Positions 6,294 through 45,819 of a DNA stretch of 64,000 bases are shown piece by piece (position 1 is the stretch's first letter; every line of letters begins with the position of its first letter). The stretch is from Luteibacter sp. Sphag1AF (lineage in GTDB: Bacteria > Pseudomonadota > Gammaproteobacteria > Xanthomonadales > Rhodanobacteraceae): positions 992,001-1,056,000 of the forward strand of contig NZ_JACHYH010000001.1 in assembly GCF_014192715.1 (NCBI RefSeq). Reading direction: 5' to 3'. A program made the translations under genes and the position numbers. The notes below the pieces were generated by a model that made no database searches, was not told the DNA's origin, and worked only from the letters and a program-made list of their open reading frames with translations.

Positions 6294-6303
6294 GTGATGA
6301 CTG

Positions 6304-6335
6304 GCCTGTTGCCTGCACATATGCGGGCAACAGGC
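6304..6335. terminator. Bidirectional hairpin between convergent genes
   Basis: Perfect 10-bp inverted repeat GCCTGTTGCC / GGCAACAGGC with a 12-base loop, in the 43-base gap between the plus-strand hydrolase and the minus-strand YgjP-like gene. Confidence 0.7.
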
Positions 6336-6336
6336 T

Positions 6337-7149: not shown

Positions 7150-7176
7150 CTCAGCGACCGCGACACCCGGCGGGGC

Positions 7177-8085: not shown

Positions 8086-8120
8086 GCGTGGACGGATCTC
8101 GTTCAAATAGGTGACCGGAA

Positions 8121-8137
8121 CGGGCGCCGTGCGCCCG
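8121..8137 (-). terminator. Possible hairpin between the aminotransferase gene and rdgC
   Basis: 7-bp inverted repeat CGGGCGC / GCGCCCG with a 3-base loop in the 90-base gap. No T-tract; it could equally be a leader structure of rdgC. Confidence 0.35.
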
Positions 8138-8175
8138 CTCGGGAAAGACCTCCCTCAAGGCGGGAGATCGAAGAA

Positions 8176-9375
8176 TCAGCGGCTGACCTGCGCGATGGCT
8201 TCGGCCACGCGATCAAGGTTGCCGTGATTGAGTGCCGCGACACAAATGCGCCCCGTGCTCACGGCGTAGATGCCAAACTCGCTGCGCAGACGCTCCACCT
8301 GCGTGGCCGTGAGGCCCGAGTAGGAGAACATGCCGCGCTGCGCCTCAATGAAGCTGTAGTCGCCCTGCGCGTGGTGAACTGCCAGACGCTCGACCAGACC
8401 ACGGCGCATCGCGCGGATGCGCTCGCGCATTTCACCGAGCTCGGCTTCCCACGTGCTGCGCAGCTCCGCGTGATTGAGCACTGCCGACACCACCGCCGCG
8501 CCGTGCGTGGGCGGGTTGGAATAGTTGGTGCGGATCACGCGCTTGACCTGCGACTGCACACGCACCGCTTCGTCATGGCTCGCCGTCACGATGGACAATG
8601 CGCCAACGCGCTCGCCGTACAGCGAGAACGACTTGGAGAACGAACTTGCCACGAAGAACGGCAAGCCCGACTCAGCGAACAGACGTACCGCCGACGCATC
8701 GGCGTCGATGCCGTCGCCAAAGCCCTGATAAGCGATGTCCAGGAACGGCGTCAGCGAACGCGCCTTGACCGTTGCGATGACCCGCTTCCAGTCCGCGTCG
8801 GTCAGATCGACGCCCGTGGGATTGTGGCAGCACGCGTGCAGCACCACGACCGAACCGGCGGGCAACGCTTCAAGGCCGGAAATCATGCCGTCTACGTTCA
8901 CGCCGTGCGTGGACGCGTCGTAGTACGGGTATTGCACCACCTCGAAACCCGCTGCTTCGAACAGGGCACGATGGTTTTCCCAGCTGGGATCGCTGATGGC
9001 GACCGGCACGCCCGGGTTCAGGCGATACAGGAAATCTGCACCCACGCGCAGCGCACCCGTGCCACCCAGCGCCTGCGCGGTGACGACGCGGCGTTCGGCA
9101 ATCAGCGGCGAGGAAGCGCCGAACAGCAGCTGCTGCACGGCCAGGTCATACAGGGCGATGCCGTCAATGGGCAGATAGCCTCGCGGCAACTGCGCTTTCA
9201 GACGCGCTTCTTCGGCCTGGCGCACGGCGCGCAGCAGAGGCACGTGGCCGTTATCGTCGTAGTAGACGCCCACGCCAAGATTGACTTTATCGGCACGCGA
9301 ATCTGCACCGAAAGCTTCGTTCAGGCCGAGGATCGGATCGCGCGGGGCGAGTTCGACGGAAGAGAAGAGAGTCAT
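8176..9375 (-). CDS. tyrB: Aspartate/aromatic amino acid aminotransferase
   Basis: A 399-residue fold-type I PLP enzyme of the AspC/TyrB subgroup Ia. The sequence opens with the AspC-like FSSVELAPRDPILGLNEAF, has the cofactor-binding CCHNPTGVD segment, and the Schiff-base lysine is Lys248 in SSFSKSFSLYGERVGAL. It transfers amino groups between aromatic amino acids or aspartate and 2-oxoglutarate. Whether tyrosine/phenylalanine or aspartate is the main substrate cannot be read from sequence alone, so the symbol is provisional. It sits 14 bases downstream of ttcA and is probably cotranscribed with it. Confidence 0.88.
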   Translation of the reverse strand: MTLFSSVELAPRDPILGLNEAFGADSRADKVNLGVGVYYDDNGHVPLLRAVRQAEEARLKAQLPRGYLPIDGIALYDLAVQQLLFGASSPLIAERRVVTAQALGGTGALRVGADFLYRLNPGVPVAISDPSWENHRALFEAAGFEVVQYPYYDASTHGVNVDGMISGLEALPAGSVVVLHACCHNPTGVDLTDADWKRVIATVKARSLTPFLDIAYQGFGDGIDADASAVRLFAESGLPFFVASSFSKSFSLYGERVGALSIVTASHDEAVRVQSQVKRVIRTNYSNPPTHGAAVVSAVLNHAELRSTWEAELGEMRERIRAMRRGLVERLAVHHAQGDYSFIEAQRGMFSYSGLTATQVERLRSEFGIYAVSTGRICVAALNHGNLDRVAEAIAQVSR

Positions 9376-9389
9376 GGTCGGTATGCCGG

Positions 9390-10301
9390 TTACGGTTCGG
9401 AAGAAGGTTCGTCGCTGGTGTCACCACCGGCAAGCCACGCATGCGCATCTGCACGGGCAGCGCCCTCGCGGGCTCCCAGCGACGCAAAATCGAACAACTG
9501 GCGATCAACCAGTTGCGACGGTGCGATGTTGCCCATGGCGCGGAAGATGGTCTCACTGCGGCCGGGGTGGGATTTTTCCCAATCCTCAAGCATGCGCTTG
9601 ACGACCTTGCGCTGCATGTTTTCCTGCGACCCGCAAAGGTTGCACGGAATGATGGGGAAGGCACGTGACTGCGCATACGCGGCAATGTCGTCTTCGCGGC
9701 AATACGCAAGGGGGCGTATCACCACGTGGCGTCCATCGTCGGACTGCAATTTCGGAGGCATGGCCTTCAGGCTGCCCTGATAGAACATGTTGAGGAAAAA
9801 CGTACCAAGAATATCGTCGCGGTGATGACCCAGCGCAATCTTGGTGATGCCGTTATCTGCGGCCCACTGGTAAAGCGCGCCGCGCCGCATGCGCGAACAC
9901 AGGCTGCACATCGTCTTGCCCTGCGGAATCACCCGCGTGACGACGCTGTAGGTGTCCTGCTCGATGATGTGGAACGGCACACCGCGCTCGCTGAGATATT
10001 CCGGAAGCACGTGCGCGGGGAAATCAGGCTGCTTCTGGTCGAGATTGACGGCAATCAGCTCGAACCTGACCGGCGCTTTGGCCTGAAGCGACAGCAGCAT
10101 GTCCAGGAGCGTGTAGGAATCCTTGCCGCCGGACAGGCACACCATGATCTTGTCGCCATCTTCGATCATGCCAAAGTCAGCAATGGCCTGGCCGACCTGA
10201 TGGCGCAGCCGCTTGGCCAGCTTGCCGGCCTCGTAGGACTGCTTGCGTTGAATTTCAGGACGGGCGGACATGGGCTCGGAAACAGGAAGAGGGCCCCCCA
10301 T
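9390..10301 (-). CDS. ttcA: tRNA 2-thiocytidine(32) synthetase TtcA
   Basis: About 303 residues. The PP-loop ATP-pyrophosphatase motif SGGKDS is at residues 57-62, with two CxxC pairs (CSLC near residue 132 and CNLC near 222) that hold the iron-sulfur cluster; the GHHRDD and CGSQEN segments are typical of TtcA. It thiolates cytidine 32 of certain tRNAs, an anticodon-loop modification. The start is uncertain: an ATG 30 bases downstream (10271, beginning MSARPEIQ) is equally plausible, and neither has a clear ribosome binding site. It is transcribed divergently from the DUF465 gene and leads a probable ttcA-tyrB unit. Confidence 0.93.
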
Positions 10302-10372
10302 TGTAGCCGCTGCCGAAGCCCCCGCCCGGCGAGGTACACTCAGGATCTTCTCCAGCCGCGCCGGCCATTGCC

Positions 10373-10579
10373 ATGCAGGTTCAGGATCCAGCCCAGCTCG
10401 CTCAACGCCTTGCGGAATTGAAGGTGGAACACCGCGACCTCGATTCGGCCATCGACCAGCTGGCCGCCAGCATTGGTCGGGATGAGCTTCAGCTCACGCG
10501 CCTCAAAAAACGCAAATTGCTGCTCAAAGACACGATCGCCCGGATCGAAAGCCGGCTGATCCCCGATCTGGATGCCTGA
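10373..10579 (+). CDS. DUF465/YdcH-family small coiled-coil protein
   Basis: A 68-residue, almost wholly helical protein. The pattern [13 protein letters not shown] followed by [17 protein letters not shown] matches the YdcH/DUF465 family, in which a short helical hairpin ends in the LKKRKLxLKD motif. SlyX, which is similar in size and also coiled-coil, lacks that motif. The biochemical role is unknown. The stop codon is immediately followed by the ATG of the acetyltransferase gene, so the two are certainly cotranscribed and probably translationally coupled. Confidence 0.8.
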
Positions 10580-11167
10580 ATGACGCCTTCCGAACCCCTG
10601 GAAAATGCCCACGCCGTTCTGGAGCCGCTGACCCGGGCCCACATCCAGGAGCTGGAAAACGCCGCCGCCGACGGCGAACTGTGGAATCTGTGGTTCACCT
10701 CCGTCCCCTTTCCCGGCGGCATGAGCGATTACGTGGACAAGGCGCTCAGGGGCCAGGACGAGGGCCTGATGCGCCCTTTCGCCATCCGCGAAAAGACCAC
10801 CGGCCAGATTGCGGGCACCACGCGCTACTACGACATCGTGCCGGATCCGGCCCGGGCGGCCATCGGCTACACCTGGTACGCGAAGCGCTGGCAGAAAAGC
10901 CATCTCAATACCGCCTGCAAGCATCTCTTGCTGGCCAACGCCTTTGAAAACCTTGGCCTGGTCGCCGTCGAATTCCACACGGACGCTTACAACTTCGACT
11001 CCCAGCGCGCCATCGAGCGCCTGGGCGCGAAACGCGAGGGCACGCTGCGTGCCCACAAAAGGCGCCCGGACGGCAGCCTGCGCGACACGGTCTGCTTCAG
11101 CATCCTGGCCACCGAATGGACCGACGTGAATCGCTGGCTGCAACTGCGCCTGTCGCGCCTGACCTGA
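10580..11167 (+). CDS. GNAT N-acetyltransferase (RimJ/RimL type)
   Basis: A 195-residue single-domain GNAT protein. It begins with the LEPLTRAHIQEL pattern common to RimJ/RimL-like acetyltransferases, has the beta-strand AIGYTWYAKRWQKSHLNTACK where acetyl-CoA is bound, and ends with the typical NFDSQRAIERLGAKREGTLR segment seen in enzymes acting on N-termini or on antibiotics. The target is unknown. The start directly abuts the stop of the DUF465 gene. The 3' end shares a hairpin with the convergent efflux operon. Confidence 0.85.
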   Translation: MTPSEPLENAHAVLEPLTRAHIQELENAAADGELWNLWFTSVPFPGGMSDYVDKALRGQDEGLMRPFAIREKTTGQIAGTTRYYDIVPDPARAAIGYTWYAKRWQKSHLNTACKHLLLANAFENLGLVAVEFHTDAYNFDSQRAIERLGAKREGTLRAHKRRPDGSLRDTVCFSILATEWTDVNRWLQLRLSRLT

Positions 11168-11183
11168 CGCCCCTCAGGGCGTC
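11166..11183. terminator. Bidirectional hairpin overlapping two stop codons
   Basis: Perfect 7-bp inverted repeat GACGCCC / GGGCGTC with a CTCA loop, spanning the ends of the acetyltransferase gene and the convergent aaeA-like gene, which are only six bases apart. Confidence 0.55.
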
Positions 11184-12190
11184 GTGGTGGGGTCGCCGCT
11201 GGGGTGCACCACCAGGGTCGCGGTCATGCCGGCAGCCAGCACCACGCCCTTGGGAAGGTGCTCGGGGTCGATCTTCACGCGCACCGGCACCCGCTGCGCC
11301 AGACGCACCCAGTTGAACGTGGGATTCACATCTGCCAGCAGGTCCGAGCCGGTGGGATTGTCGGCATCGGTAATGCCGCGCGCGATGCTCTCCACGGTGC
11401 CCTTCAGATGCACGCCGCCGCTCATCAGGCGAATGTCCACCGGATCGCCCACGCGCAGGCTGGGGAGCTTGGTTTCTTCGAAATAGCCGTAGATCCAGTA
11501 CGAATGACTGTCGATCAGCGCCAGTCGTGCCGTGCCCGCGTTGGCGTAATCACCCACGCGTACGTCCAGGTTGGTGACATAGCCGTCCACGGGCGCACGC
11601 ACCTGCGTGCGATCCAGATTCAGTTGTGCTGCGGCCACTTCGACCTGAGCCTGCGCCACAGCTGCCAGCGCCTGTTCCTGCGAGGCGCTGGCCTGCTTCT
11701 GACTGGCCTGAGCCTGCTGCCAGCCAGCACGAGCCGCGTTGGCCACCGCAACGGCGTTGGCCTTGTCTTCGGCGGAAATCACGTTGTTGATGAGTTTCTG
11801 ACGGCGCTCGGCCTGCGCTTCGTACATCTCGAAGTTGGTACGGCTCTGCGCGATGCCGGCGGTGGCTGCATTGATGGTGGCGCCAGCCGCACGCGCGGCG
11901 GCTTCCGCTGCGTTGAGGTTGGCCTGTGCCTGAGCGACGGCATTCTGGTAGCGCGCTGGATCTACCACGAAGAGCAGGTCGCCCTTTTTCACCGCCTGGT
12001 TGTCGACCACCCGCACTTCGGTCACCAGCCCGGCGACGTCCGGTGCGATGCGCACCACTTCCGCGCGCACGCGACCGTCCCGCGTCCATGGCGAGTACAT
12101 GTAGTGCTTCCAGAGCGCATGACCGATGAGTGCCGCGACGATGACAACCACCGCGGTAACGGCAAAACGGATGAGGGTCGGGAGTTTCAT
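11174..12190 (-). CDS. AaeA-like membrane fusion protein (HlyD family)
   Basis: A 338-residue periplasmic adaptor. One N-terminal membrane anchor (about residues 8-27) is followed by the family motif YSPWTRDGRVRAEVVRIAPDVAG, the first half of the lipoyl domain. An alanine- and glutamine-rich alpha-helical hairpin spans about residues 85-190, and the second lipoyl half APVDGYVTNLDVRVGDY follows. This layout matches AaeA/EmrA-type adaptors that work with FUSC or MFS pumps. It is the last gene of the marR-aaeB-aaeX-aaeA-like operon, nine bases after the DUF1656 gene. By analogy with Escherichia coli AaeAB, the system probably exports aromatic carboxylic acids such as hydroxybenzoates; the substrate is inferred. 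Confidence 0.9.
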   Translation of the reverse strand: MKLPTLIRFAVTAVVVIVAALIGHALWKHYMYSPWTRDGRVRAEVVRIAPDVAGLVTEVRVVDNQAVKKGDLLFVVDPARYQNAVAQAQANLNAAEAAARAAGATINAATAGIAQSRTNFEMYEAQAERRQKLINNVISAEDKANAVAVANAARAGWQQAQASQKQASASQEQALAAVAQAQVEVAAAQLNLDRTQVRAPVDGYVTNLDVRVGDYANAGTARLALIDSHSYWIYGYFEETKLPSLRVGDPVDIRLMSGGVHLKGTVESIARGITDADNPTGSDLLADVNPTFNWVRLAQRVPVRVKIDPEHLPKGVVLAAGMTATLVVHPSGDPTTTP

Positions 12191-12199
12191 GGGATGGAC

Positions 12200-12397
12200 T
12201 CAGAACAGGGTGAAGGCGATGGCGCCAAAGACGCACACAAACAGCGCAAGACGGAAAAGCGGCGGATGCCACACAAGCCGGTACAGACCGTAGCGGCCAG
12301 CCAGCCAGTCCAGGAGCCACAGGATGGCCAGGGTCAGGACGAACAGCACGAGAATGCCGGGGACCAGTGCGTCACCGAGCGCGATTTCACGGGGCAT
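12200..12397 (-). CDS. DUF1656 (AaeX-like) small membrane protein
   Basis: A 65-residue protein with two hydrophobic segments (about residues 10-30 and 45-63), the layout of DUF1656/AaeX proteins, which are almost always encoded between the FUSC transporter and the adaptor in this kind of operon. Its start overlaps the 3' end of the FUSC gene by 11 bases, implying translational coupling. Its molecular role is unknown in the family; assembly or stabilisation of the pump is a reasonable guess. Confidence 0.85.
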   Translation of the reverse strand: MPREIALGDALVPGILVLFVLTLAILWLLDWLAGRYGLYRLVWHPPLFRLALFVCVFGAIAFTLF

Positions 12398-14513
12398 TGG
12401 ACACCTCCCTCGAAAGTGGAGCCGTGGGCATGTACGCGGCCAGGACCGATTCGCCGTCCAGCAGCGCCATGCGGATCAGATGAAGATGTTCAAGCAGGAA
12501 TTGTGAGGATTCCTGCTCGCTGGCCGCGGCAATGGCCGTGGCGGTGGCGTCGCGCGCCAGAAGATATTTCGCAGCATCGGGAGACTCGTAGAAACGAGCC
12601 AGCGCAGCGATGGCCGTGGTGACGTAGCTGCGCACCTCGGGTGACGCCTCTCCACGGGCGAGGTCATGGCGCAGCGCGATCAGCGCGCGGCCGGTTTCAT
12701 GCACCGCCAGCGCCCAGGCCAGCAACGTACGCGAGTCCGCGCTACCCGGCTCCGTGTGCGACACCACCTGGCTGACCAGATCGTGGTTCACGCTTTCAAA
12801 GCGATGGCGCAGACCCGGGAGCGGCGCTTCGGCAGCAAGCGCCACTTGGCCGCGCAGTCGCGCGAGTTGACGGGTACGCAGCCAGCGGCTGCCGATGATG
12901 GTCGGCACAAAAACAAAGGCGATGGCCGCGGCGCTCAGACCGACGATCTGCGCGATGGCATCATTGATGAAGTGCACCGGGTCGTAAACCATCGGATTCT
13001 TCAGGGCCAGGATGTACGCAAAACCCATGGAATAACCGAGGCCCACGCTGCCCCACGTGCTGCTCATCATCATGGCTAGCCCGATCATGAGGAAGGGCGC
13101 GATGCCCATCACCATCAACGGATAGCCATCCACCTGGGTGAGCACGAAGAACACGCAGATGAACCCCATCACCATGCCGACGAGATATCCGATGGTGACA
13201 ACGCCGGTGACGCGCGTGGGATTGGGTGCCGCGGCAAACAGGCCTGCGAAGATCGTCGCCAGCAGCATCGCGCTGGACCCCATGGGCCACGCGCTCAGTA
13301 TCCAGAAAGTACCCAGCGCCAGCATGGTCAGCGTGGTGCGGAACGTGGCCAGCAACGCGCCTGCATAATCATTGCCACGCGCAAAGCGTACGCGCTCGGC
13401 GGAGGCAGCCGTGATGCGCGGCGCCTGTAGCGTGGCCGCACTGTCCACATACGCGTACAGCTCATCAGAGAAGCGACGCAGAAGCGCGGCGCCCGTGTCG
13501 AAGTCGCGCACGTCCTGCGGATCGCTGAGACGAGAGCGCAGCCTGCTGCTGTCAGCCGCCATGATGCGGCGGGCGTCAATCAGTCGCGGCAACAGCACCC
13601 GAGCAGCGGCGCCGGCCTCAATGGGGGCATCCAGCGCCACACTCAGCGGGGTGTAGAGCTCGATCAACGCTTCACTGGTGGCGTCACGGCGCGCGCGCTT
13701 CAGGCGATTCACCAGATGATGCAGCGACTGGAAACTGGTGGACGCCGCCATGAAGCGCTGGTTGAACTCCTGCAGATGACCGCTGCGTGCACGCGCTTCA
13801 GCGTCTTCAAAGATCACGGAACTGCGCAGATCTTCCAGCGTGACGGCCGCACGCACGAAGCGAAGGTGGGCGCGCTCGATGGTGCCGCGCGGCTGCGAAC
13901 CGGAGGTGGCCGCGCGCACGAATTCCACGAAGTGGGCGAACTGCTCGCGGGCAGTGCGACGAAGCACATCACGCATGCGGCTGGGAAACACCACGTCGTT
14001 AACGACGCCACTGACCAGCAAACCGAGCAGCACTTCGCTGATGCGCGACGTCGCGGAATCAAACACGCCGGGCGGATTGTCGATCACCGGAATGGCAATG
14101 ATGGCTGCCGTATAGCCGCCCAGAACAAACGCATACGACTTGAAGTTGCGGTACAGCGTGGCGCCACCGGAACAGATGCCGAGCCAGAGCGACAACGCAA
14201 CCAAAAACATGTCCCGCTGCTGCGGGAAGGCCGCAACGATGATGAACGCCACCACGGCGCCACCCAGCGTGCCGATGGCACGATAAAAGCTCTTCGCCAG
14301 CACCATGCCGGACTGACGGTTGGCCACGATGATCGTGGTGAGCATCGCGGTAGCCGGTGCCGGCAGCGACAGGCGCATCGCAATCCAGCCGGTCAGGAAA
14401 AAGGCCAGCATGGTCTTGAAGACAAACAGCCATACCGACGCCTGCTCACGCAGCGTGTCGACGACGATCTGGCGCGTCGCCGGGGCCTGATTTTCGATGT
14501 CGACGGTGGACAT
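12387..14513 (-). CDS. FUSC-family aromatic acid exporter (AaeB-like)
   Basis: A 708-residue inner membrane protein with the duplicated FUSC architecture: an N-terminal block of membrane helices (about residues 30-180), a long cytoplasmic helical region, a second membrane block (about residues 375-520) and a C-terminal cytoplasmic tail. This is the layout of AaeB and related fusaric-acid-resistance pumps. It lies 15 bases downstream of marR and overlaps the DUF1656 gene. With the adaptor it should form a proton-driven exporter; an outer membrane channel gene is not present locally, so it may borrow a TolC-like protein. Confidence 0.9.
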   Translation of the reverse strand: MSTVDIENQAPATRQIVVDTLREQASVWLFVFKTMLAFFLTGWIAMRLSLPAPATAMLTTIIVANRQSGMVLAKSFYRAIGTLGGAVVAFIIVAAFPQQRDMFLVALSLWLGICSGGATLYRNFKSYAFVLGGYTAAIIAIPVIDNPPGVFDSATSRISEVLLGLLVSGVVNDVVFPSRMRDVLRRTAREQFAHFVEFVRAATSGSQPRGTIERAHLRFVRAAVTLEDLRSSVIFEDAEARARSGHLQEFNQRFMAASTSFQSLHHLVNRLKRARRDATSEALIELYTPLSVALDAPIEAGAAARVLLPRLIDARRIMAADSSRLRSRLSDPQDVRDFDTGAALLRRFSDELYAYVDSAATLQAPRITAASAERVRFARGNDYAGALLATFRTTLTMLALGTFWILSAWPMGSSAMLLATIFAGLFAAAPNPTRVTGVVTIGYLVGMVMGFICVFFVLTQVDGYPLMVMGIAPFLMIGLAMMMSSTWGSVGLGYSMGFAYILALKNPMVYDPVHFINDAIAQIVGLSAAAIAFVFVPTIIGSRWLRTRQLARLRGQVALAAEAPLPGLRHRFESVNHDLVSQVVSHTEPGSADSRTLLAWALAVHETGRALIALRHDLARGEASPEVRSYVTTAIAALARFYESPDAAKYLLARDATATAIAAASEQESSQFLLEHLHLIRMALLDGESVLAAYMPTAPLSREVSNAP

Positions 14514-36162: not shown

Positions 36163-37638
36163 TCAGATCGGGTACGCGGGTGCGTCGCTCTTGATGGTCA
36201 GCCACTGCCACTGGGTGAATTCTTCCCCGTTGGCCGGGCCACCGATGCTCGTTCCGTTACCCGATGCGCCCACGCCGCCGAACGGGTTGATGACTTCATC
36301 GTTAACGGTCTGATCGTTGATATGCAGCAAGCCGGTACGCAACCGCTCGCCCAGCTTCAACGCACGCCCCACATCGCGCGACATCACACCCATCGACAGG
36401 CCGTACTCGGTATCGTTGGCAAGCTCCACCGCTTCTTCGTCAGTGTCGAATGGCACCAACACCGCCACGGGTGCAAAGATCTCTTCGTGGAACGCCGGGT
36501 TTTCCCGCGTCACGCCGCTCAGCACCGTGGGCTCGAAGAAAAGCTCGCTGTAGTTGCCACCCGTTTCGACCGTGGCACCTGCGGCTTTCGCTGCCGCAAC
36601 CACGCGGGCAGCATGGTCACGCTGTGCGGCGTTGATGAGCGGCCCGATGGCGACGTCACCCCTGGCAGGGTCGCCCACGACCAGACTGCCTGCCTTTGCG
36701 ACCAACGCCGCAAGGAAGCGGTCGTAAATGCCACGCTGCACAAGCACCCTGCCCGTCGCCATGCATATCTGCCCCTGATGCAGGTAAACACCCCAGGCCG
36801 TATTGGCGATCGCCAGGTCGAGGTCGGCGTCGTCCAGAATGATGAGCGAGTTCTTGCCGCCCAGTTCCAGCGATACTTTCTTGAGATTGCGGCTCGCCGC
36901 TTCACCCACCTTCCGTCCAGCTGCCGTGGAACCGGTGAACTGGATCATGGCCACTTCAGGTGCACTGGTCAGTGCCGCACCCGCCGCGCCGTCACCCGGC
37001 AGGACATGAAGCACACCCTCGGGCAACCCAGCCAGTTCAAACAGCCGGGCGATGACGAAACCCCCGCAGATGGACGTGCGCGGATCGGGTTTCAACACCA
37101 CCGCGTTGCCCAGGGCCAACGCAGGCGCAACCGCGCGGATGGCGAGGTACAGCGGGAAATTGAAGGGTGAGATTACGCCCACCACACCCAGCGGGCGTCG
37201 ACGCGCGAGACTGATGCGTCCTGCGTTGGACGGAAGCACCTCGCCTACGCTTCTGGACGGCAGGGCCGACGCTTCATGCAGCACCTTGATGGATACTGCC
37301 ACTTCAAACTGCGCCTTCAGGCGGGTAGAGCCGCTTTCGCGCACAAGCCATTCGACCATCTCTGCTTGATGCGCCTCGGCGAAGGATGCCGCGCGGCGCA
37401 ACGTGGCACTCCGCTCATCATAAGCAAGCGCTGCCCATGCGATCTGCGCCACGGACGCGGTACGGGCAGACTGGTTGACCTGGCTGGCATCAGCCATGCC
37501 GATCTTTGCGAGGATCTCACCGGTGGCGGGCTCTACGACGTCAGCAGCGCCGAGGGCGCCCTTCGTCCATTGGCCTGTAAACAACTTGCCGTCGAGCACG
37601 TCTGGCGGCAAGAGGGAGGTGCGGTGCGTGGTGTCCAT
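36163..37638 (-). CDS. Aldehyde dehydrogenase (benzaldehyde/vanillin dehydrogenase type)
   Basis: A 491-residue NAD(P)-dependent aldehyde dehydrogenase. The catalytic Cys292 is in GQICMATGRV, and the general base Glu258 is in SLELGGKN; FTGSTAAGRKV binds the cofactor and SPFNFPLYLAIRAVAPALA is the N-terminal signature. The start MDTTHRTSLLPPDVLDGKL and the ICMATGR form fit the XylC/Vdh group acting on aromatic aldehydes. It is followed by the zinc alcohol dehydrogenase gene and preceded by an AraC gene on the same strand, a layout like aromatic alcohol degradation or detoxification modules. Confidence 0.9.
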   Translation of the reverse strand: MDTTHRTSLLPPDVLDGKLFTGQWTKGALGAADVVEPATGEILAKIGMADASQVNQSARTASVAQIAWAALAYDERSATLRRAASFAEAHQAEMVEWLVRESGSTRLKAQFEVAVSIKVLHEASALPSRSVGEVLPSNAGRISLARRRPLGVVGVISPFNFPLYLAIRAVAPALALGNAVVLKPDPRTSICGGFVIARLFELAGLPEGVLHVLPGDGAAGAALTSAPEVAMIQFTGSTAAGRKVGEAASRNLKKVSLELGGKNSLIILDDADLDLAIANTAWGVYLHQGQICMATGRVLVQRGIYDRFLAALVAKAGSLVVGDPARGDVAIGPLINAAQRDHAARVVAAAKAAGATVETGGNYSELFFEPTVLSGVTRENPAFHEEIFAPVAVLVPFDTDEEAVELANDTEYGLSMGVMSRDVGRALKLGERLRTGLLHINDQTVNDEVINPFGGVGASGNGTSIGGPANGEEFTQWQWLTIKSDAPAYPI

Positions 37639-37753
37639 GGAGCCCTCTCACGATGTGTTGTCGCCCTATTGGGAGCGCATGGGCACGGATTGGGTATTGG
37701 ACCTTTGACAACGCCCGCTTCGGCCTTGTGGCATCCCGGGTGTAGCACGCGGG

Positions 37754-37772
37754 GTGTTCAGGTTCTGAACAC
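37754..37772 (-). terminator. Palindrome between the AraC and aldehyde dehydrogenase genes
   Basis: Perfect inverted repeat GTGTTCAG-GTT-CTGAACAC, eight bases past the AraC gene stop and 116 bases before the aldehyde dehydrogenase start. It could be a terminator hairpin or an operator; the sequence does not decide. Confidence 0.45.
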
Positions 37773-37780
37773 ACGGCGCC

Positions 37781-38860
37781 TCAGAGGGTGAGCCATTCCA
37801 GCTTCATGGCACCGAATTCTGCCGGCGCCATGCCATAGGCGCGGCGGAAGGCGCGGGTGAAATCGGAGGCATAGCGAAAGCCCAGACGCGAGGCGATCTG
37901 CGCAATGGGAACGGGCGCCGTCTGCGCCAGCTCGTCTGCCGCCTGACGCAAACGCGAATTGCGGATGTACGCGTGCAGGCCGCCCTCGTGCTCGAACATG
38001 CGATAGAGCGTCGGGCGGGCAAGAGGGAACATGCTGAGCACGTTATCCGGCGTCAGATCACGGCGATGAAGGTTCCCATGGATGTAGTGCTTGATGCGCC
38101 CGAGCATCGCATCGCGTGCCGCCGCCCTCACCTGGCCGCTGGCGCGTGCCTGCTTGCCGAATGCCGCAAGAATCAGCCCGGCACAGGTGCGCAGTGCCCG
38201 TTCGGCTTCAGCGGGCGCCATGCCTGGAAGCTCGTCACACAGGTCAAGCAACGACTGCCGCAACAGCATCGTCAGCGGGGACGTGTAACCAAGCACCTGC
38301 CCGTGAATCGACTCAGCCTCGGGAATGGCTGCATTCACCACGCTGCGCGGAAAGAAGAATGCAAGAACGCGCGCACGGGTCGGGCGCTTCATCAGCATCG
38401 GCTGACTCATGTCCAGCGCGAGAATACCCGGCACGTACTGGGTCGACTTGCGCTGATGGGACGACAGGGTCTGGGTATCGGCAATGCCTTCCACGGCCAC
38501 ATGAAAACAGAAGTCCGTCATGTTGTCGGTGGAAATCCGCGCGAGGGTGCGTTCCTGCGATACAGGGTCGGTTCGGCTGTCCAGATAGATCAGGCCATCC
38601 AGCACAAATGTCTCGATCTGCCCGTCGAAACCGCGCTTCACATGGGCACGGGAGATCGGCACGTCGAGGATGCGACCGACGTAATCGCTCCACGCCAGCA
38701 TCTGCAAATCCACCCGCTCATTGGCCACGGAAAACTGCTCACGGATGAGCGTGGACCCTGCGTCGCCGGAAGCCATGCGCGTGTGCCTCAGGTAACGGGC
38801 AGACATGGCCTGAAGAACGGCCTCGGAGTACGCCCGGATGGGGGGAGTGGGTTGCCCCAT
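37781..38860 (-). CDS. AraC-family regulator (XylS/FeaR-like layout)
   Basis: A 359-residue protein. The N-terminal half is a long ligand domain of the AraC-binding type (for example TLSSHQRKSTQYVPGILALD). The C-terminal DNA-binding region has a first helix-turn-helix LTPDNVLSMFPLARPTLYRM and a second, PIAQIASRLGFRYASDFTRA followed by YGMAPAEF. Long AraC proteins of this build often govern aromatic amine or aromatic acid pathways. Its position just upstream of the aldehyde and alcohol dehydrogenase genes, same strand, suggests it activates them. Confidence 0.87.
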   Translation of the reverse strand: MGQPTPPIRAYSEAVLQAMSARYLRHTRMASGDAGSTLIREQFSVANERVDLQMLAWSDYVGRILDVPISRAHVKRGFDGQIETFVLDGLIYLDSRTDPVSQERTLARISTDNMTDFCFHVAVEGIADTQTLSSHQRKSTQYVPGILALDMSQPMLMKRPTRARVLAFFFPRSVVNAAIPEAESIHGQVLGYTSPLTMLLRQSLLDLCDELPGMAPAEAERALRTCAGLILAAFGKQARASGQVRAAARDAMLGRIKHYIHGNLHRRDLTPDNVLSMFPLARPTLYRMFEHEGGLHAYIRNSRLRQAADELAQTAPVPIAQIASRLGFRYASDFTRAFRRAYGMAPAEFGAMKLEWLTL

Positions 38861-38886
38861 ATGCGTTTGCTGACGTGGTGAAACGG

Positions 38887-38917
38887 TGTGGGAGCGGATC
38901 GCCCTGAAAGGGCGATG
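38887..38917. repeat. REP-like palindromic element (GTGGGAGC head)
   Basis: The tetranucleotide-headed sequence TGTGGGAGCGG is followed by the stem-loop ATCGCCCT-GAA-AGGGCGAT (38898-38916). This is the format of the GTAG/GTGG-type REP sequences scattered in Pseudomonas and xanthomonad genomes and mobilised by RAYT transposases. It lies between the AraC gene and the 1208-residue protein gene. I see no second copy and no RAYT gene in this window. Confidence 0.6.
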
Positions 38918-39102
38918 CTATCTCAGATCAGTATGCAAATTCAGCCTCGTTGTGAGGGTGCCAGGGCGCCCTCTTAACCGTGCGTCTCACTTTTGTTCTG
39001 GCGGAAGCCGGGGCCCTCCTCCTTGCCATATGCTCGCGCGGACTGAGGCCCCGGATGCGTTTACCCGGGGAACAGAACGTCATTCAAACAGGGGAAGTCA
39101 GC

Positions 39103-42100
39103 ATGAGCGTCGCATGGCAGTCACGGCCGAAAGAATCCCACCTTCTGCACTTCAGCCTGCCGAAGGTCGAGGAATCGCACGAGCTCACACTGAACGTGTG
39201 CCTGCAACGCTTCCCGCTGAAGCCGCATACCGAAGCGACGCGACTCGCGGCGCGCGCAAAACATGGCTTTCTGCGCCACGCCACGAATGATGACCTGACC
39301 CACTACATCGAAGTGGAACTGCCCGGAGACGCGGTTGCGCTGATGGAGGTGACCCGGGTCGTTCTGGTCAATGGCCTGCCCGCCGAAAAGACCGTGCATC
39401 TGGGCATCCACCTTCCCAGAAGTGGTCTGCGCAATGCGGTGCAGACCATTCGTGAGCAACCCGGCACGGAGATGGAAAGCCATCCGAAACTCATCCGGCT
39501 GGCGAAGCTGCTGGCGAATGACGCGCACGTCGATGACGCAGAGCCGGAGGATCTCGCTCTGTGGCAGACGCCTTACGAGTGCGCCGCCTCGCTGCTTTTC
39601 CAGCATCCGGACATCATCTATCTCGATGCCAAGAACGGCACCGACGACAAGCCCGGCTACATCATGGAGCGCTGCATCCGCAAAGCATTGATGCGGACGG
39701 GCGAGCTGATCGAAATCATCAGCATGCTGGGGGATGACTGGGTGGATACCCAGGTCGCGAAGGGTCCGGACGACAAACCGCTGGTGGACGCAGCGGGCAA
39801 CCCGGTCTACACGCGCGTGCTGCATCCCGAAGTGCAAGCCGCGCTGCGTGCCCCGCTCGCCTATGCAATCAAGCTCATCAAGAGCGACAACGTTCTGCGC
39901 GATGTGAAGTGGAGCTTGCAGTACGGCACCACCACCGATACCTATGGCGCTTCTGCCGACGATGGCCTCGCCCCGCATCAGGCGCTCCTGGCCAGCGATA
40001 GCAGCGCGGTGGCCGCCGGTCCCTATAAGTGGTCGCTGGCCAATCGCACGCCGGGCTCCGGCCTGTCGGTCAATCCGTCGCTGGAATTCAAGCCTGCCAC
40101 TCAGCAGAAGGTCTTCAACACGACGGACATCTGGCTGAACTCCGAGCCAGGAAAGGCCGCGCTTAGCCCCGAAGCAGTGAAGGAACTTCTGGCTGGCGGC
40201 ATGTTTGTTTCGTTGTGCACGCCGGAGCATCCCAGCGGCATATTGCGTGCGCAACTTCTGCCCAGGGGCCCGGTTGTCGACGGCAAGGAAGTGGAATTCG
40301 ATGCCGTATTCAGCGGCGATGCCGCCGTGCCTCCGGTATCCAGCAAGGCCAGCGCGACAGGGCGGTTCAAGCTCAACGACCTGCGCACGGCGCTCACCTT
40401 CAGCATTGCGGCCAGGGAACTGGGCCCCTCGCCCACGGGCATGCTGGGTATCGGCATTCCTGGCCAGCGCGATAAAGACGTTCGCCCGTTTCCAATTGCA
40501 GATGACAGCGCGTATGGCACGCTGACGCTCACCTGCACGAACGAATGGCTTCGCCACCTTTCTGCATGCGTGCGCTATCTGGATGAAAGCGGAAAAGTCA
40601 TCACTCCCACGAACTGGTCCGAGAAGATTCCCAGCGGCCTGCGCTCGCTGTTTCAACAGGACGACAACACAAAGTTCCTGGACCTGGTGCCGCCGGTACG
40701 CACGGTATTTGCCATTCCTGTACCGCCTGATCCGACGCGGATTTCCATTCCGGTTCCAGCAGACGCGCGGTCGGTGCAGATCTATTTCGGGGGTCTGGGA
40801 AGCGGCGGCAGCTATGACGGTGCAGTGTGTCCGGTCGGCTTCGCGCTGACGGTAGTGATGGAGATGGCCGTCCCCATGATACTTCTGGTGGCCGGCACGG
40901 CGGTGACCAACTCCAAGACCGTGGTTGAACTTGTGGCCAATACGGAAGTCCTGTTCGCCGTGTGCACCGTCGCGGCCTTCCTGGTGGCGGGAGGCTCTGC
41001 GGCATATATCGGCACGTCACAGGACCCGATGATCGCGGTGAAAAATTGCGCGATTACGCTGGGACCGATGCTGCTGTCGCCCGCGACTGCACTTGGCCAA
41101 TATCTGCTGAAGGAATACGCCGCCGGCATGGCCGCGCGCGCGGTTCCCTTCCTCAACGTGCTGACCACCGTGGTCAGCGGTGCCGTCACGGCGGCCCAGC
41201 TGGCGCAGACCAGTATCGAAGTCGCATCATCGCCATGGGTGTTCAACGCCGAGATTACCCGAGCGATTGACCTGGATGTGACGCTTGTTCCGGATCACAA
41301 CTTCCATCGTTTCCCGGACGTTGCCACCAGCTACTCGGTAGCCGTGGTGTACGACAAGGGCGCCACATTGCCCAAGCAGGAATTCCAGCTGCGCAACGGG
41401 CCGCCGTGGAGCAAACCGATCAAGGTGATGTTCAAGGACATTCCGGCAGGCGGACGCCTGAAGGTCTACGTGTTCTTCTACGCGGCCAACGGCTGGCAGG
41501 CGGGCCAGGGCGAATCGGGCTGGATCGACGCGCGCGGCACAAAGGATGCCACCCTCGTCATCAATGGCCTGGAGATCACCACCAACGAAGTGCCGTTGAC
41601 GAAAGACTCGGTCTACACGCACGCATCGAAAATCGCTTACGACCAGGCCCGTGGCGGACACTACTGGCATGCTGTGAAGGTGTCCCCGGATGCCACCTCG
41701 GCCACTGCGCCAACGGACCCGAAAAAGTCCATTCAGCGGCTGATGTCGATCACCACCGCGCAACGTCCGGCCATGATGGCTTATGCGTGGCAGGCCACGG
41801 GGCTCAACGTTCCCCTGGATGACGCGTCCGCGACGCCAGTCAATCAGTCGATGTATACGCTGCAGAATCTGTCGACACTGGAAGATCCCGATAGCGCCTA
41901 TGCCACGCCGGCCGTCGGCTTCAACAGTCCTCCGGGCGTGTTCTATGACGTTGCCAGCCCGCAGAACGGCACCGGCCGCAACTTCTTCGCCGACTCCACG
42001 CGCGGCGACTTCGACGCCGTACGAAACCCCGCCGGTGGCATGCACATCCGCCGCGTTGCGCTGACTTACCGGGGCCAGCCACCCGCATTCAAGACACGAA

Positions 42101-42729
42101 GCAATGAAAGCTGGGGGCGCTTCCCGATGGCGATGGATCGCTACATCCTGCATCCGCAGGGTGCGGTAATCGGTATCAACTACTCCACGCACAAGATCTA
42201 CATCCTGCAATTGCCGACCGCCCATACCACTGATGACAAGGCACCGCTGGCGACAATGGCATCGGGCGAAGGGCTTCGCGAGGGAATGCTCAGCGGGCCG
42301 CGTGCCATTGCCACCGGCCTGGATGGTCGCGTGCTGATTCTGGAGAGCGGCAACAATCGCATTCAGGCATTCGATCTTCAGGGAAAGCCTGTCGCGTATT
42401 TCAAGGATGCGAAAAGCGGTCAGAAGACATCGATCATGGCGCTCAGGGATTCGGAGAACTCAACGTATCTGGACCTAGCCGTCGAGGCCAAGGGGTATCT
42501 GTACGTACTGCGCTGCCGGAGCCCGGTCAGGCCGGAGAACTACATGGTTGACCTCTATCAGCCCGATGGCACGTTCCTGACGTCCACACCGAGGGTGACG
42601 GCGGACAAGATCACGGTTGATCTTTTGCGCAACATGTTCTCGCTGAACTACGAGGTCATCTACGGCAAGGACGGGCGTCCGGAGCCTTCCGTCAGTCTGT
42701 GGATTCCCCCCGCGCCTTCTGCCAGTTGA
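39103..42729 (+). CDS. Large CHRD/NHL-like protein with internal hydrophobic segments, unknown
   Basis: 1208 residues from ATG 39103, with GGGGAAG 6-12 bases upstream; a longer frame to 38980 lacks support. There is no signal peptide. From about residue 350 a CHRD-like stretch appears (PSGILRAQLLPRG, then a beta-rich ATGRFKLNDLRTALTFS). Around residues 580-715 there are several hydrophobic, glycine/alanine-rich segments (AVPMILLVAGTAV, VLFAVCTVAAFLVAGGSAA, LTTVVSGAVTAAQLA) that could insert into a membrane. The C-terminal 170 residues look like beta-propeller NHL repeats (SGPRAIATGLDGRVLILESG). I know no family with this combination. The stop overlaps the start of the pentapeptide-repeat gene by one base (TGATG), so the two are coupled. 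Base composition is somewhat less G+C-rich than the core genes. Confidence 0.75.
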   Translation: MSVAWQSRPKESHLLHFSLPKVEESHELTLNVCLQRFPLKPHTEATRLAARAKHGFLRHATNDDLTHYIEVELPGDAVALMEVTRVVLVNGLPAEKTVHLGIHLPRSGLRNAVQTIREQPGTEMESHPKLIRLAKLLANDAHVDDAEPEDLALWQTPYECAASLLFQHPDIIYLDAKNGTDDKPGYIMERCIRKALMRTGELIEIISMLGDDWVDTQVAKGPDDKPLVDAAGNPVYTRVLHPEVQAALRAPLAYAIKLIKSDNVLRDVKWSLQYGTTTDTYGASADDGLAPHQALLASDSSAVAAGPYKWSLANRTPGSGLSVNPSLEFKPATQQKVFNTTDIWLNSEPGKAALSPEAVKELLAGGMFVSLCTPEHPSGILRAQLLPRGPVVDGKEVEFDAVFSGDAAVPPVSSKASATGRFKLNDLRTALTFSIAARELGPSPTGMLGIGIPGQRDKDVRPFPIADDSAYGTLTLTCTNEWLRHLSACVRYLDESGKVITPTNWSEKIPSGLRSLFQQDDNTKFLDLVPPVRTVFAIPVPPDPTRISIPVPADARSVQIYFGGLGSGGSYDGAVCPVGFALTVVMEMAVPMILLVAGTAVTNSKTVVELVANTEVLFAVCTVAAFLVAGGSAAYIGTSQDPMIAVKNCAITLGPMLLSPATALGQYLLKEYAAGMAARAVPFLNVLTTVVSGAVTAAQLAQTSIEVASSPWVFNAEITRAIDLDVTLVPDHNFHRFPDVATSYSVAVVYDKGATLPKQEFQLRNGPPWSKPIKVMFKDIPAGGRLKVYVFFYAANGWQAGQGESGWIDARGTKDATLVINGLEITTNEVPLTKDSVYTHASKIAYDQARGGHYWHAVKVSPDATSATAPTDPKKSIQRLMSITTAQRPAMMAYAWQATGLNVPLDDASATPVNQSMYTLQNLSTLEDPDSAYATPAVGFNSPPGVFYDVASPQNGTGRNFFADSTRGDFDAVRNPAGGMHIRRVALTYRGQPPAFKTRSNESWGRFPMAMDRYILHPQGAVIGINYSTHKIYILQLPTAHTTDDKAPLATMASGEGLREGMLSGPRAIATGLDGRVLILESGNNRIQAFDLQGKPVAYFKDAKSGQKTSIMALRDSENSTYLDLAVEAKGYLYVLRCRSPVRPENYMVDLYQPDGTFLTSTPRVTADKITVDLLRNMFSLNYEVIYGKDGRPEPSVSLWIPPAPSAS

Positions 42730-45065
42730 TGGAAACATCTGTGCACAAATCGCTCGACAAACACATCGGCTCCGGAGGCGGGGCCGATTTCGACCTGCTC
42801 TTTCGCGGCAAGTACAGGCTGTCGATGGAGGTCGCACCCCATCGCTACTTTCTTGCCGGAAAGAACAACAGTGCGGAAGTGGCACTGACCACCAACGCGA
42901 CCGAAGCGATGCTGTTCGCCCTGTATGACTTACGCTTTCCGGATGGAACAAAAAACGTCGTCGTACTCCAGGCGATGCCTGGAAATCTGACGCTGCCCAT
43001 GTCTGGTGGCTTTGTCGTCATCATGGGAGATAGCGACGCCGTAAGCGGCATGAATATGTTCGACTATCACCAGGCCACGCAATTCATCACCGAACCGCGT
43101 GGGCCGGGCGAACTTCGACTGATGCATCGGCGCCGCAACCGCCGCCTTACCGTACGCGCGACGGGAGGCAGCCCCACGTTCTGGCTAGCTCCTCAGAATC
43201 AGTTCGACGATGCACCATGGCGACTGGACGCCGTGCAGGAGTGGCGCGACGGCCCCATGGACAATGCCGACCTGAGTTATGTCCTCGGGCTGCGTCACAG
43301 GATTCATTCGGGGCAGTCGTTCAAGGGAACGAAGCTTGATTACGCAAGCTTCACGTCAGCCTTCCTGGGGAATGCCAGGTTCAACGGCGCCAGCTGCGTG
43401 GGAACGGCATTCAACAATGCCGACCTGGCCGGTGCGGACTTCACGGGCGCCAACCTCACCGATGCCATTTTCAGCGGCGTTGACGCACGGGGTGCGAAAT
43501 TTCCCGGTGCGAAGTTCTCTGCAAAGAGTTTTGATCGCACCTACGCGATGTTCGATACCCGCTTCGAGAAAGCCGTGCTCACCAAGGCTGTTCTTGATGG
43601 ATGCAGTCTTGGCAAGGTCTGTTTCACGGGAGCCACGCTCGACGAAGCGAGCTTCAAGAAAGCCGATCTTCTCCATGCAGACTTCACGGACGCAAGCGCT
43701 GCGCGCGTCGCATTCGATGAGGCCAATGCCGCCGGAGCCCTTTTCAAGAACGCCAACCTGACCGGAGCCACGTTCCGCAAAACCAGAATCGGTGGCAGCA
43801 CATTCAAGGCGAGCACGCTTACCGACGCGTCATTTGAAAATGCCTCGCTCGACCTGCCGGCCGGCTCGCCGCTCGTGGATTTCACGAGCGCAACGCTGTA
43901 CCACATCGATTTCAGTGGTTGCGATCTGCGAATGGCAACGATTGTCGGACGTCCTGCATTTCACAGAAGCGACGCACCCTCACCGGATAGCTCAACGAAC
44001 TATGCCAGATTCAAAAGCGCCCAGGTGCCCCTGGCCGTCATCGGCGAGACGAACTGGCGCATGCTCGACCTGACCGGTGCAACGATTCATGGGTCGCTGA
44101 AAACACTCAGGAATTTCCAGGGGCATTACGCCATCCTTCCTGACAACTATAGTTTTGCGGACGGCATCGACCTGACCGGAGCGAAATTCGTGGGTGCACG
44201 GTTGCGCGGCGCACGACTGAGCGGTGCGAAAGCAACCGCTGTGTCGGGCAAGCCCGAAACCTTCCCTGACTTCACGGGAGCAGATCTGACCAGTGCGAAG
44301 ATGGCCAGCTGCGTCATCTGGCGCACTATCTTCACGAACGCCATCATGCATGGCGTAAATCTGTCGGGCTCGGAACTGTCCTACGCCATGTTCAATGGGG
44401 CGCGTCTTGATTCGAAGCCCGGTGAGCGCGCGGGGGCATCGCTGGTTGCGGACTTGAGCCAGGCCAGACTGACTGAAACCAACTTCAAGGGCGCCTACCT
44501 CAATGGATCTCCGGATTCACTGGGTGCGAACCTCAGTCTCGTACGTTTCAGCGGGACGATGGCGGACGCCACGCTTACACGAGCCGTGTTCACGGGAGCC
44601 TATCTGGCCGCTGTGGATTTCAGCGGGGCAAAGTTGAAGTCGATGGCAGGGGTGAACTTTGCCGGGACCTGTCTGGTCAACTGCAACTTCAAGGGCGTTT
44701 CGCTGCAGCAGGCGATACTTACCGGCGCCTGCCTGCTGGGTGCTGACTTCACCGATGCGGATCTGGGCAGCGCAAAGATGGCGAGCGCGCTCATCGCCGG
44801 TGATGAAATGGTGCAAGACGAGAATACGCTCGCCATCGAGGGTTTCACGGTGCCCATATCGCTGGCTTACCAGCGCACCATCATCGTGGAGAGCATGACG
44901 GACGACGCAACAACCTGCCCCAACCGAGACAACGGTCCCTGTGCGGAAGCCTCATTGCGCAGAGTGCGCGGGCCGCAGGTATGGCAATACAAGGCCAAGA
45001 GTACGATGACTGAACATGGCAACCCGACTACATCGCCCGAAACAGATGCACATGCGCTCGACTGA
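42729..45065 (+). CDS. Large pentapeptide-repeat protein, unknown
   Basis: 778 residues from ATG 42729, which overlaps the previous stop (TGATG). A longer frame beginning ten codons upstream is within that gene. The first 190 residues form a beta-rich domain (YRLSMEVAPHRYFLAGKNN, then FVVIMGDSD and GELRLMHRRRNRRLTVRATG). Residues about 200-700 are a long series of pentapeptide repeats of the A(D/N)LxG/F type (NADLAGADFTGANLTDAIF, KLDYASFTSAFLGNARFNGA), which fold as a quadrilateral beta-helix. A short tail with two cysteines ends the protein. No signal peptide or membrane segment is seen. Pentapeptide proteins can mimic DNA or act as scaffolds or effectors; the role here is unknown. Its last 38 bases overlap the convergent LytTR gene. 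Confidence 0.85.
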   Translation: METSVHKSLDKHIGSGGGADFDLLFRGKYRLSMEVAPHRYFLAGKNNSAEVALTTNATEAMLFALYDLRFPDGTKNVVVLQAMPGNLTLPMSGGFVVIMGDSDAVSGMNMFDYHQATQFITEPRGPGELRLMHRRRNRRLTVRATGGSPTFWLAPQNQFDDAPWRLDAVQEWRDGPMDNADLSYVLGLRHRIHSGQSFKGTKLDYASFTSAFLGNARFNGASCVGTAFNNADLAGADFTGANLTDAIFSGVDARGAKFPGAKFSAKSFDRTYAMFDTRFEKAVLTKAVLDGCSLGKVCFTGATLDEASFKKADLLHADFTDASAARVAFDEANAAGALFKNANLTGATFRKTRIGGSTFKASTLTDASFENASLDLPAGSPLVDFTSATLYHIDFSGCDLRMATIVGRPAFHRSDAPSPDSSTNYARFKSAQVPLAVIGETNWRMLDLTGATIHGSLKTLRNFQGHYAILPDNYSFADGIDLTGAKFVGARLRGARLSGAKATAVSGKPETFPDFTGADLTSAKMASCVIWRTIFTNAIMHGVNLSGSELSYAMFNGARLDSKPGERAGASLVADLSQARLTETNFKGAYLNGSPDSLGANLSLVRFSGTMADATLTRAVFTGAYLAAVDFSGAKLKSMAGVNFAGTCLVNCNFKGVSLQQAILTGACLLGADFTDADLGSAKMASALIAGDEMVQDENTLAIEGFTVPISLAYQRTIIVESMTDDATTCPNRDNGPCAEASLRRVRGPQVWQYKAKSTMTEHGNPTTSPETDAHALD

Positions 45066-45819
45066 CCGGCAAGATTTCCTGCCTGCTGCGCAAATGAATC
45101 TCGGCCGTTTCGTTTCCAGCGCGAACAACGTGTGACACCGCGTGCACATTGACGAGCACCGAGCGATGCACTTGCAGGAATCGCGTGGGATCGAGCTTCG
45201 CGGCAAGTTCCTTCAGCGACATAGTCAGAATGGCCTCGCGCGGATGGCCCGCATCATCGTGCCAGGCCACGCGCGTGTATCGGGCGTCTGAACGAAGATA
45301 GTCGATGGATTCCACCGGAATCATCTTCAACGTCTGGCCAATCTGCGCGCTCAGCCACTTCAGTGGTGCTTCGGCAGGGCGCGTGGCAGCGTCCAGGCGG
45401 ACGCTCAATTGACGCAACTGTTCGGCCATGTCGACGGTCACCGAGGTTGAGCCAAGCCGGGCCTTCACGCGCGCGACGGTGTCGATCAGCCGGGACAATT
45501 CCACCGGCTTCACCAGATAGTCGAGCACGGCGTGCGCGAACGCCTGCACAGCATAGTCGTCGTAGGCAGTAACGAACACGACATGCGAGCGCCCCTGAAC
45601 AGCCTGTGCCACATCGATGCCCGACAGGCCCGGCATCCGGATATCCAGAAAACAGACGTCCGGATGATGCAGGTCAAAGAGGCGTATCGCGTCCTTGCCA
45701 TTGCGCGCTTCTGCCACGATGCGCAGATCGGGCCATGCCACGCCGAGCTGACGAATCAGCGCTTCACGAAGCAGCGGCTCGTCGTCTGCCACCAGCGCGG
45801 TGGGCCTCGTATTTGTCAT
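45028..45819 (-). CDS. LytTR-family response regulator
   Basis: 263 residues from ATG 45819, where GGGAGGT stands four bases upstream; longer frames are rejected. An N-terminal receiver domain has the acidic pocket ADDE near residue 12 and the phosphoacceptor Asp59 in VCFLDIRMPG, with Lys in VKPVELS near residue 108. The C-terminal LytTR DNA-binding domain has the LRSDARYTRV and RFLQVHRSVLVNVHAV signatures. Such regulators usually bind paired direct repeats. It overlaps its cognate histidine kinase gene by four bases and is the last gene of the DUF2306-kinase-regulator unit. Its 3' end overlaps the pentapeptide-repeat gene tail to tail. Confidence 0.92.
   Translation of the reverse strand: MTNTRPTALVADDEPLLREALIRQLGVAWPDLRIVAEARNGKDAIRLFDLHHPDVCFLDIRMPGLSGIDVAQAVQGRSHVVFVTAYDDYAVQAFAHAVLDYLVKPVELSRLIDTVARVKARLGSTSVTVDMAEQLRQLSVRLDAATRPAEAPLKWLSAQIGQTLKMIPVESIDYLRSDARYTRVAWHDDAGHPREAILTMSLKELAAKLDPTRFLQVHRSVLVNVHAVSHVVRAGNETAEIHLRSRQEILPVSRAHVHLFRAM

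Follow-up and report, generated by a model that had tools for sequence, protein, structure and literature searches.

A large NHL-like propeller protein and a pentapeptide-repeat protein encoded as a recurrent gene pair in Luteibacter and distant bacteria

The described proteins closest to the gene pair reported here each resemble one part of it. NHL-repeat propeller proteins (TRIM71, TRIM2, Brat and Thin; PF01436) are like the C-terminal part of the first protein, A, in sequence and fold, but the likeness is limited to the last quarter of A, the remainder being without a relative of this kind. CHRD domain proteins (PF07452) resemble a segment of A in Luteibacter sp. Sphag1AF and in Dyella flagellata, whereas in eight of the ten A proteins scanned the domain does not rise above the cut-off. 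The pentapeptide-repeat proteins (PF00805), including HetL, Qnr, MfpA and PipB2, have the same repeat and fold as the solenoid of the second protein, B. Unlike them, B is much longer, carries an N-terminal part of its own and a TTCP...GPC...W motif, and in the family set of genomes (E<=1e-40) is found only where A is. Proteins of the BPI/LBP/CETP type and bacterial TULIP proteins (DUF4403, P47, OrfX2) form no part of A or B; one genome (G387) does have a BPI-type gene between the two, which the other loci read do not. The folds are already known; we found no named system having A-B as a member or variant, and no new mechanism is claimed. Among the matches listed for the open-licence papers searched there was no description of such a pair, and one annotated record names A a 'hypothetical protein' and B a 'pentapeptide repeat-containing protein'.

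The window analyzed is a 64,000-nucleotide stretch of the Luteibacter sp. Sphag1AF genome. On its forward strand, gene A (39103..42729) codes for a propeller protein of 1208 aa with a hydrophobic middle, as defined by its ORF and by full-length relatives, and gene B (42729..45065) is an ORF for a pentapeptide-repeat protein of 778 aa. The stop of A and the start of B share one base, in TGATG, just as the original prediction had it. Overlaps of 1 or 4 bases were found at nine of the 11 A-B junctions measured (L086-L089 left out), the remaining two being spaced by 12 and 44 bases. An alternative upstream GTG start of A (38980), which would give a signal-like N-terminus, was rejected as it falls inside a conserved 22-bp element described below and the starts of the relatives agree with 39103.

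Genome sets of differing breadth were surveyed. The window's genus (a set of 23) has full-length A in the window's own genome alone, with a short propeller-type match in G867. In the window's family, 17 of 233 genomes match A, 13 at full length. When B is searched by profile at E<=1e-40, which we set so as to exclude ordinary pentapeptide proteins, the hits are the identical set of 13. Short matches to the propeller region were left out of the A counts, both here (four of 17) and in the samples of the order (three of nine) and the phylum (22 of 27). Six of the 299 genomes sampled from the order thus encode a full-length A, the window's own included; in the other five a second ORF overlaps the end of A and aligns with B. 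The phylum sample of 398 genomes gave five long matches (G000, G625, G588, G387, and G463), and A is encoded in two (G588 and G735) of the 119 genomes of the G588 family. A profile scan of genome contigs yielded 10 loci, from Dyella (5), Tahibacter (2), Rhodanobacter, a Duganella MAG, and Mucilaginibacter sp. X4EP1. The plasmid records held one A match, on a megaplasmid of Xenorhabdus bovienii CS03.

We read 21 A loci, the window's and 20 fetched ones, and in 20 of them a B-like gene lies near A on the same strand. The lone A locus without one is L061 (G463), where the contig ends inside A. Pentapeptide genes are common and the window's genome has a second locus with them, which could make A and B chance neighbours. 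The identical 13-genome sets among 233 and the same pairing in two phyla argue otherwise, and we give this explanation next to no weight; chance adjacency was rejected on the set identity together with the 20 of 21 loci. The other pentapeptide ORFs of the window's genome (G000 contig C5, 43001-63000; L023) lie in what we take, by eye, to be a locus resembling type VI secretion.

The two proteins also share sequence. A module of about 73 residues is present in both A and B of a distant clade (L057, L058, L059, L060, and L084), the seed copies scoring by construction; no compact-form row has it at E<=0.1. In a cross-test, a profile built from five A copies and run on the 19 B rows picks those five loci (E 6e-17 to 8e-4), and one built from six B copies and run on the 21 A rows picks them again (8e-15 to 6e-7). 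At E 0.05 none of the shuffled controls was picked (0 of 380 and 0 of 420 sequences). A module common to A and B is what one would expect if a single selective regime acts on both proteins.

The tree of A, with 21 rows, and that of B, with 19, have most clades in common. Found in both are the window's clade, a clade of Duganella, Tahibacter soli and Dyella-Rhodanobacter, the G948-G949 pair, and a Xenorhabdus-type trio. The trees conflict on Mucilaginibacter, which A puts with the compact clade (99) and B, weakly, with the distant clade (57), and on where G948-G949 belongs (support of 94 for A and 47 for B). A further conflict, well supported on either side and involving long branches, concerns the order in which two genomes join the Xenorhabdus type: G387 ahead of G735 for A (99), G735 ahead of G387 for B (97). 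As the trees come from quick searches, their agreement counts as support, not proof. Dyella falls in two separate clades, as does Tahibacter; the module has therefore been transferred, or duplicated and lost, as one unit. The Mucilaginibacter sp. X4EP1 locus (L029) is from the Bacteroidota; the A-B pair is present with an A that is 38% identical, and a cross-phylum transfer is likely.

The original prediction proposed a functionally coupled, undescribed pair, and the survey upholds it. A and B occur together rather than mostly apart: the 13 family genomes (of 233) that have one have the other, and 20 of the 21 loci have B close to A. The trees largely agree, and a module is shared; no well-described family with an unrelated role emerged to speak against the pair. 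That A and B are partners is, in our judgement, very probable. The role first suggested for them, a surface, membrane-active or toxin/scaffold complex, is conjectural.

Three parts can be told apart in B, all encoded on the forward strand. The first 190 residues (42729..43298) are probably beta-rich, the structure model being of low confidence there. The pentapeptide solenoid (43311..44798; residues ~195-690), also proposed from the start, is well founded: the Pfam pentapeptide repeats are above the cut-off (2.9e-58), and the model (pLDDT 68.0, pTM 0.61) places the solenoid at about residues 195-690, with the first 190 residues unreliably modelled. Foldseek matches of the model include HetL, NP275-NP276, and Qnr. 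The third part is the C-terminal TTCP...GPC...W motif (44910..44984; residues ~728-752), recognized by alignment. Its Cys, Pro, and Trp are invariant in 11 compact-clade B proteins and changed in the B of G387.

Pentapeptide resistance proteins occur in natural-product clusters. The fold of B would suit a topoisomerase-protection protein of the Qnr, McbG or AlbG type, giving self-resistance to a polyketide, with A unrelated. Equivalog scores are far from such an assignment, as B reaches 83 bits against a cut-off of 240 for Qnr and 53 against 360 for MfpA in NCBIfam. B is also three to four times longer, is not an acidic protein (its 778 aa carry a net charge of -3), and accompanies A even where no polyketide synthase (PKS) gene is seen. 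Topoisomerase protection is therefore highly improbable. No NCBIfam model is above its cut-off for either of the window's proteins, and PADLOC-DB (2023) gave 0 families at E<=1 for them. An anti-phage defence system was rejected on the lack of a PADLOC match for the two. Phage origin was likewise rejected, there being no match to phage records, no relative on viral contigs, and no PHROGs family for three A proteins.

In A, also encoded on the forward strand, a CHRD-like part (40084..40491; residues ~328-463) is defined by Pfam at residues 328-385, its far edge being set by analogy with the relative in L027. CHRD scores 34.1 bits in the window's A against a gathering score of 24.1 (5.6e-8) and so is above the Pfam cut-off there and in the D. 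flagellata protein; among the ten A proteins scanned it is below the cut-off in one and unlisted in seven. CHRD, a title feature of the original prediction, is consequently not a defining one. The C-terminal beta-propeller (41872..42693; residues ~924-1197) rests on sequence and fold matches. The Pfam NHL repeat (PF01436) reaches 13.1 bits against a gathering score of 20, below the cut-off, and we therefore term A NHL-like rather than an NHL protein. The best PDB sequence matches of A are the NHL propellers of Thin and TRIM71, at residues ~1050-1160. The structure model of A, built from 11 sequences, is of modest quality (pLDDT 60.8, pTM 0.44). It runs from an N-terminal mixed part through CHRD-like strands, a helical block, and a beta-rich part to the C-terminal propeller, which matches NHL domains in the structure search; the NHL-like propeller predicted at the outset is thus retained. 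The VIA fold search of A listed propeller matches alone, with the other parts of A barely covered. No family besides CHRD reaches its cut-off for A in Pfam (10 A proteins), NCBIfam (five) or PHROGs (three), and by these profile searches most of A's length has no named family.

The hydrophobic helical part of A (40834..41196; residues 578-698) is delimited by hydrophobicity, the model, and alignments. The helical block of the model (model residues 566-699, the protein residue being the model number plus 10) coincides with the hydrophobicity peaks. Glu 587, within the first hydrophobic segment, is invariant in six aligned A proteins, making plain transmembrane helices doubtful. Read by eye, 20 of 21 A proteins have no signal peptide, the window's included. 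The A of G463 (L061, 1-3279, reverse strand) starts with the twin-arginine sequence RRQFNK, followed by a hydrophobic run and a lipobox-like LSSC, again as read by eye. It is the only exported-looking A among the 21 seen.

The compact form, with A directly followed by B, is found in 15 of 21 loci (the window, L018-L022, L027, L029, L031, L033, L035, and L086-L089). A and B are separated by other genes in four loci, and B precedes A in one (G735), so the two are not always direct neighbours in that order. Two glycine-rich ORFs separate A and B in L057 and L060, which are near-identical loci, and three do so in L058. One of the two in L057 has a sub-threshold collagen match (2.5e-4) and the other, longer, has no Pfam match. 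By blast, the glycine-rich, collagen-like proteins of L057, L058, L060, and L084 group together. L084 (G735) starts with B, followed by two A-type genes in tandem (7266-14308, forward strand) and a glycine-rich ORF; the second A is shorter, an open frame of 878 aa that matches A from about profile position 446 onward. In L086 (G858; 5887-8068, reverse strand), B is split across two reading frames, presumably by damage or sequencing error.

In L059 (G387), a gene of the BPI/LBP/CETP type (TULIP) lies between A and B (7525-9312, reverse strand). LBP_BPI_CETP_C (1.5e-7) is its sole Pfam match, and such a gene was seen in one locus only. Together with the hydrophobic block in the middle of A, which comes without a signal, and a scattered occurrence that extends to a megaplasmid of the insect pathogen Xenorhabdus, this gene could point to a membrane-active, toxin-like or effector complex. 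Such a complex would act against insect, protist, fungal or bacterial cells, with the block of A entering the membrane and B as a scaffold. TULIP-type P47 and OrfX2 proteins are known from botulinum toxin clusters (PMC6791001, PMC7020563). With the one BPI-type gene, we count this in favour of a toxin-like complex. Against it, Pfam finds no toxin or catalytic domain in ten A and four B proteins, and the window's two proteins lack a PADLOC match. The named carriers of A-B apart from Xenorhabdus are presumably environmental bacteria, which we also count against it. Overall, we regard a toxin-like complex as unlikely, though deserving some weight.

PKS ORFs follow the pair in four enterobacterial-type loci (L057, L058, L060, and L084/L085), with genes for an acyl-CoA dehydrogenase and a phosphopantetheinyl transferase near L084. 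In Dyella subtropica (L021), B is followed downstream on its own strand, past some other ORFs, by an AMP-binding/DIP2-like gene and a large PKS-like ORF (L103). The PKS-like ORFs of L058, L101, and L103 were named by eye, those of L058 and of the L021 end also by blast grouping. No ORF groups with PKS genes in the other 16 of 21 loci, the window's included, with ~7-24 kb of each read. PKS genes are common in Xenorhabdus, so part of the PKS link may be mere neighbourhood, and the near-identity of L057 and L060 also weighs against it.

PKS-type genes thus adjoin five of 21 loci. With the 20 A proteins that have no signal peptide by eye, and with the glycine-rich partner genes, this would suit a coat or scaffold in the cytoplasm, serving either a synthase or an inclusion made of lipid or polyketide. 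The Tat-lipoprotein-like start of G463's A and the 16 loci with no PKS beside the pair count against such a scaffold, and the conserved C-terminal cysteines of B would suit an exported protein. On balance a cytoplasmic scaffold seems rather doubtful.

We tentatively favour a reading in which A and B are obligate partners in one assembly, encoded as a mobile, regulated module, that acts outside the cytoplasm and handles a lipid-like ligand; taken whole, this statement is somewhat short of an even chance. In the window's clade the module would comprise an AraC gene, the 22-bp element, and A-B. The folds suggest that the rigid pentapeptide rod of B and the propeller of A bind each other, and the helical hydrophobic block in the middle of A may face a membrane or the lipid-like ligand. 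One member, G463 with its Tat-lipoprotein-like A, hints at action outside the cytoplasm. Accessory genes of some lineages, for glycine-rich proteins and the BPI-type lipid-binding protein, may adapt the assembly. Most likely the assembly would carry, store or present a lipid or lipid-polyketide, either on the cell surface or beyond it. We infer a lipid-like ligand from the genomic company of the pair (the BPI-type gene, PKS, and an AMP-ligase-like gene), and these lipid-binding and polyketide links suggest the first place to look for function. Standing against the favoured reading are the 20 of 21 A proteins with no signal peptide by eye and the 16 of 21 loci without PKS grouping. So do the invariant Glu 587, the well-supported disagreement of the two trees over G387 and G735, the restriction of the BPI-type gene to one locus, and the modest model of A. 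A bolder version, which we think possible but improbable, has A-B as the core of an unrecognised, modular, horizontally spread machine for handling lipids or polyketides. The propeller protein would insert its helical block into lipid, the pentapeptide rod would organize it, interchangeable glycine-rich or TULIP accessories would set the cargo, and in the window's clade it would have its own AraC switch. A family of 1,200 residues, mostly without a named family, in two phyla and with a specific partner would represent a cellular machine missed by annotation. Being compact, present in culturable strains with names, and equipped with a candidate regulator and operator, the pair lends itself to direct tests of function.

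The AraC-type regulator is encoded next to A and divergently from it (37781..38860, reverse strand). Four loci of the window's clade have this arrangement: besides the window's own, L027, L086, and L087 carry AraC genes divergent to A that share 61-68% identity with the window's, and none was found in the other 17 fetched loci. At E<=1e-60 only one of the 23 genus genomes, the window's own, has the window's AraC gene. For the aldehyde dehydrogenase encoded beyond AraC, the next best match is 42% identical and lies in the one other genus genome with a match at E<=1e-100. The stretch holding the two genes (36163-38860, reverse strand) is without a close match in the other 22 genus genomes, and by sequence the region looks species-specific. 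A search of 38800-45300 gave no sigma-70-like site. Alignment of the four intergenic regions between AraC and A is poor save for a stretch by the ribosome-binding site of A and a 22-bp block, CTTAACCGTGCGTCTCACTTTT (38973..38994, forward strand). By construction all four regions contain the pattern; elsewhere in the 4.18-Mb genome it has zero sites with at most two mismatches and one with three. We consider this element a candidate operator or promoter element.
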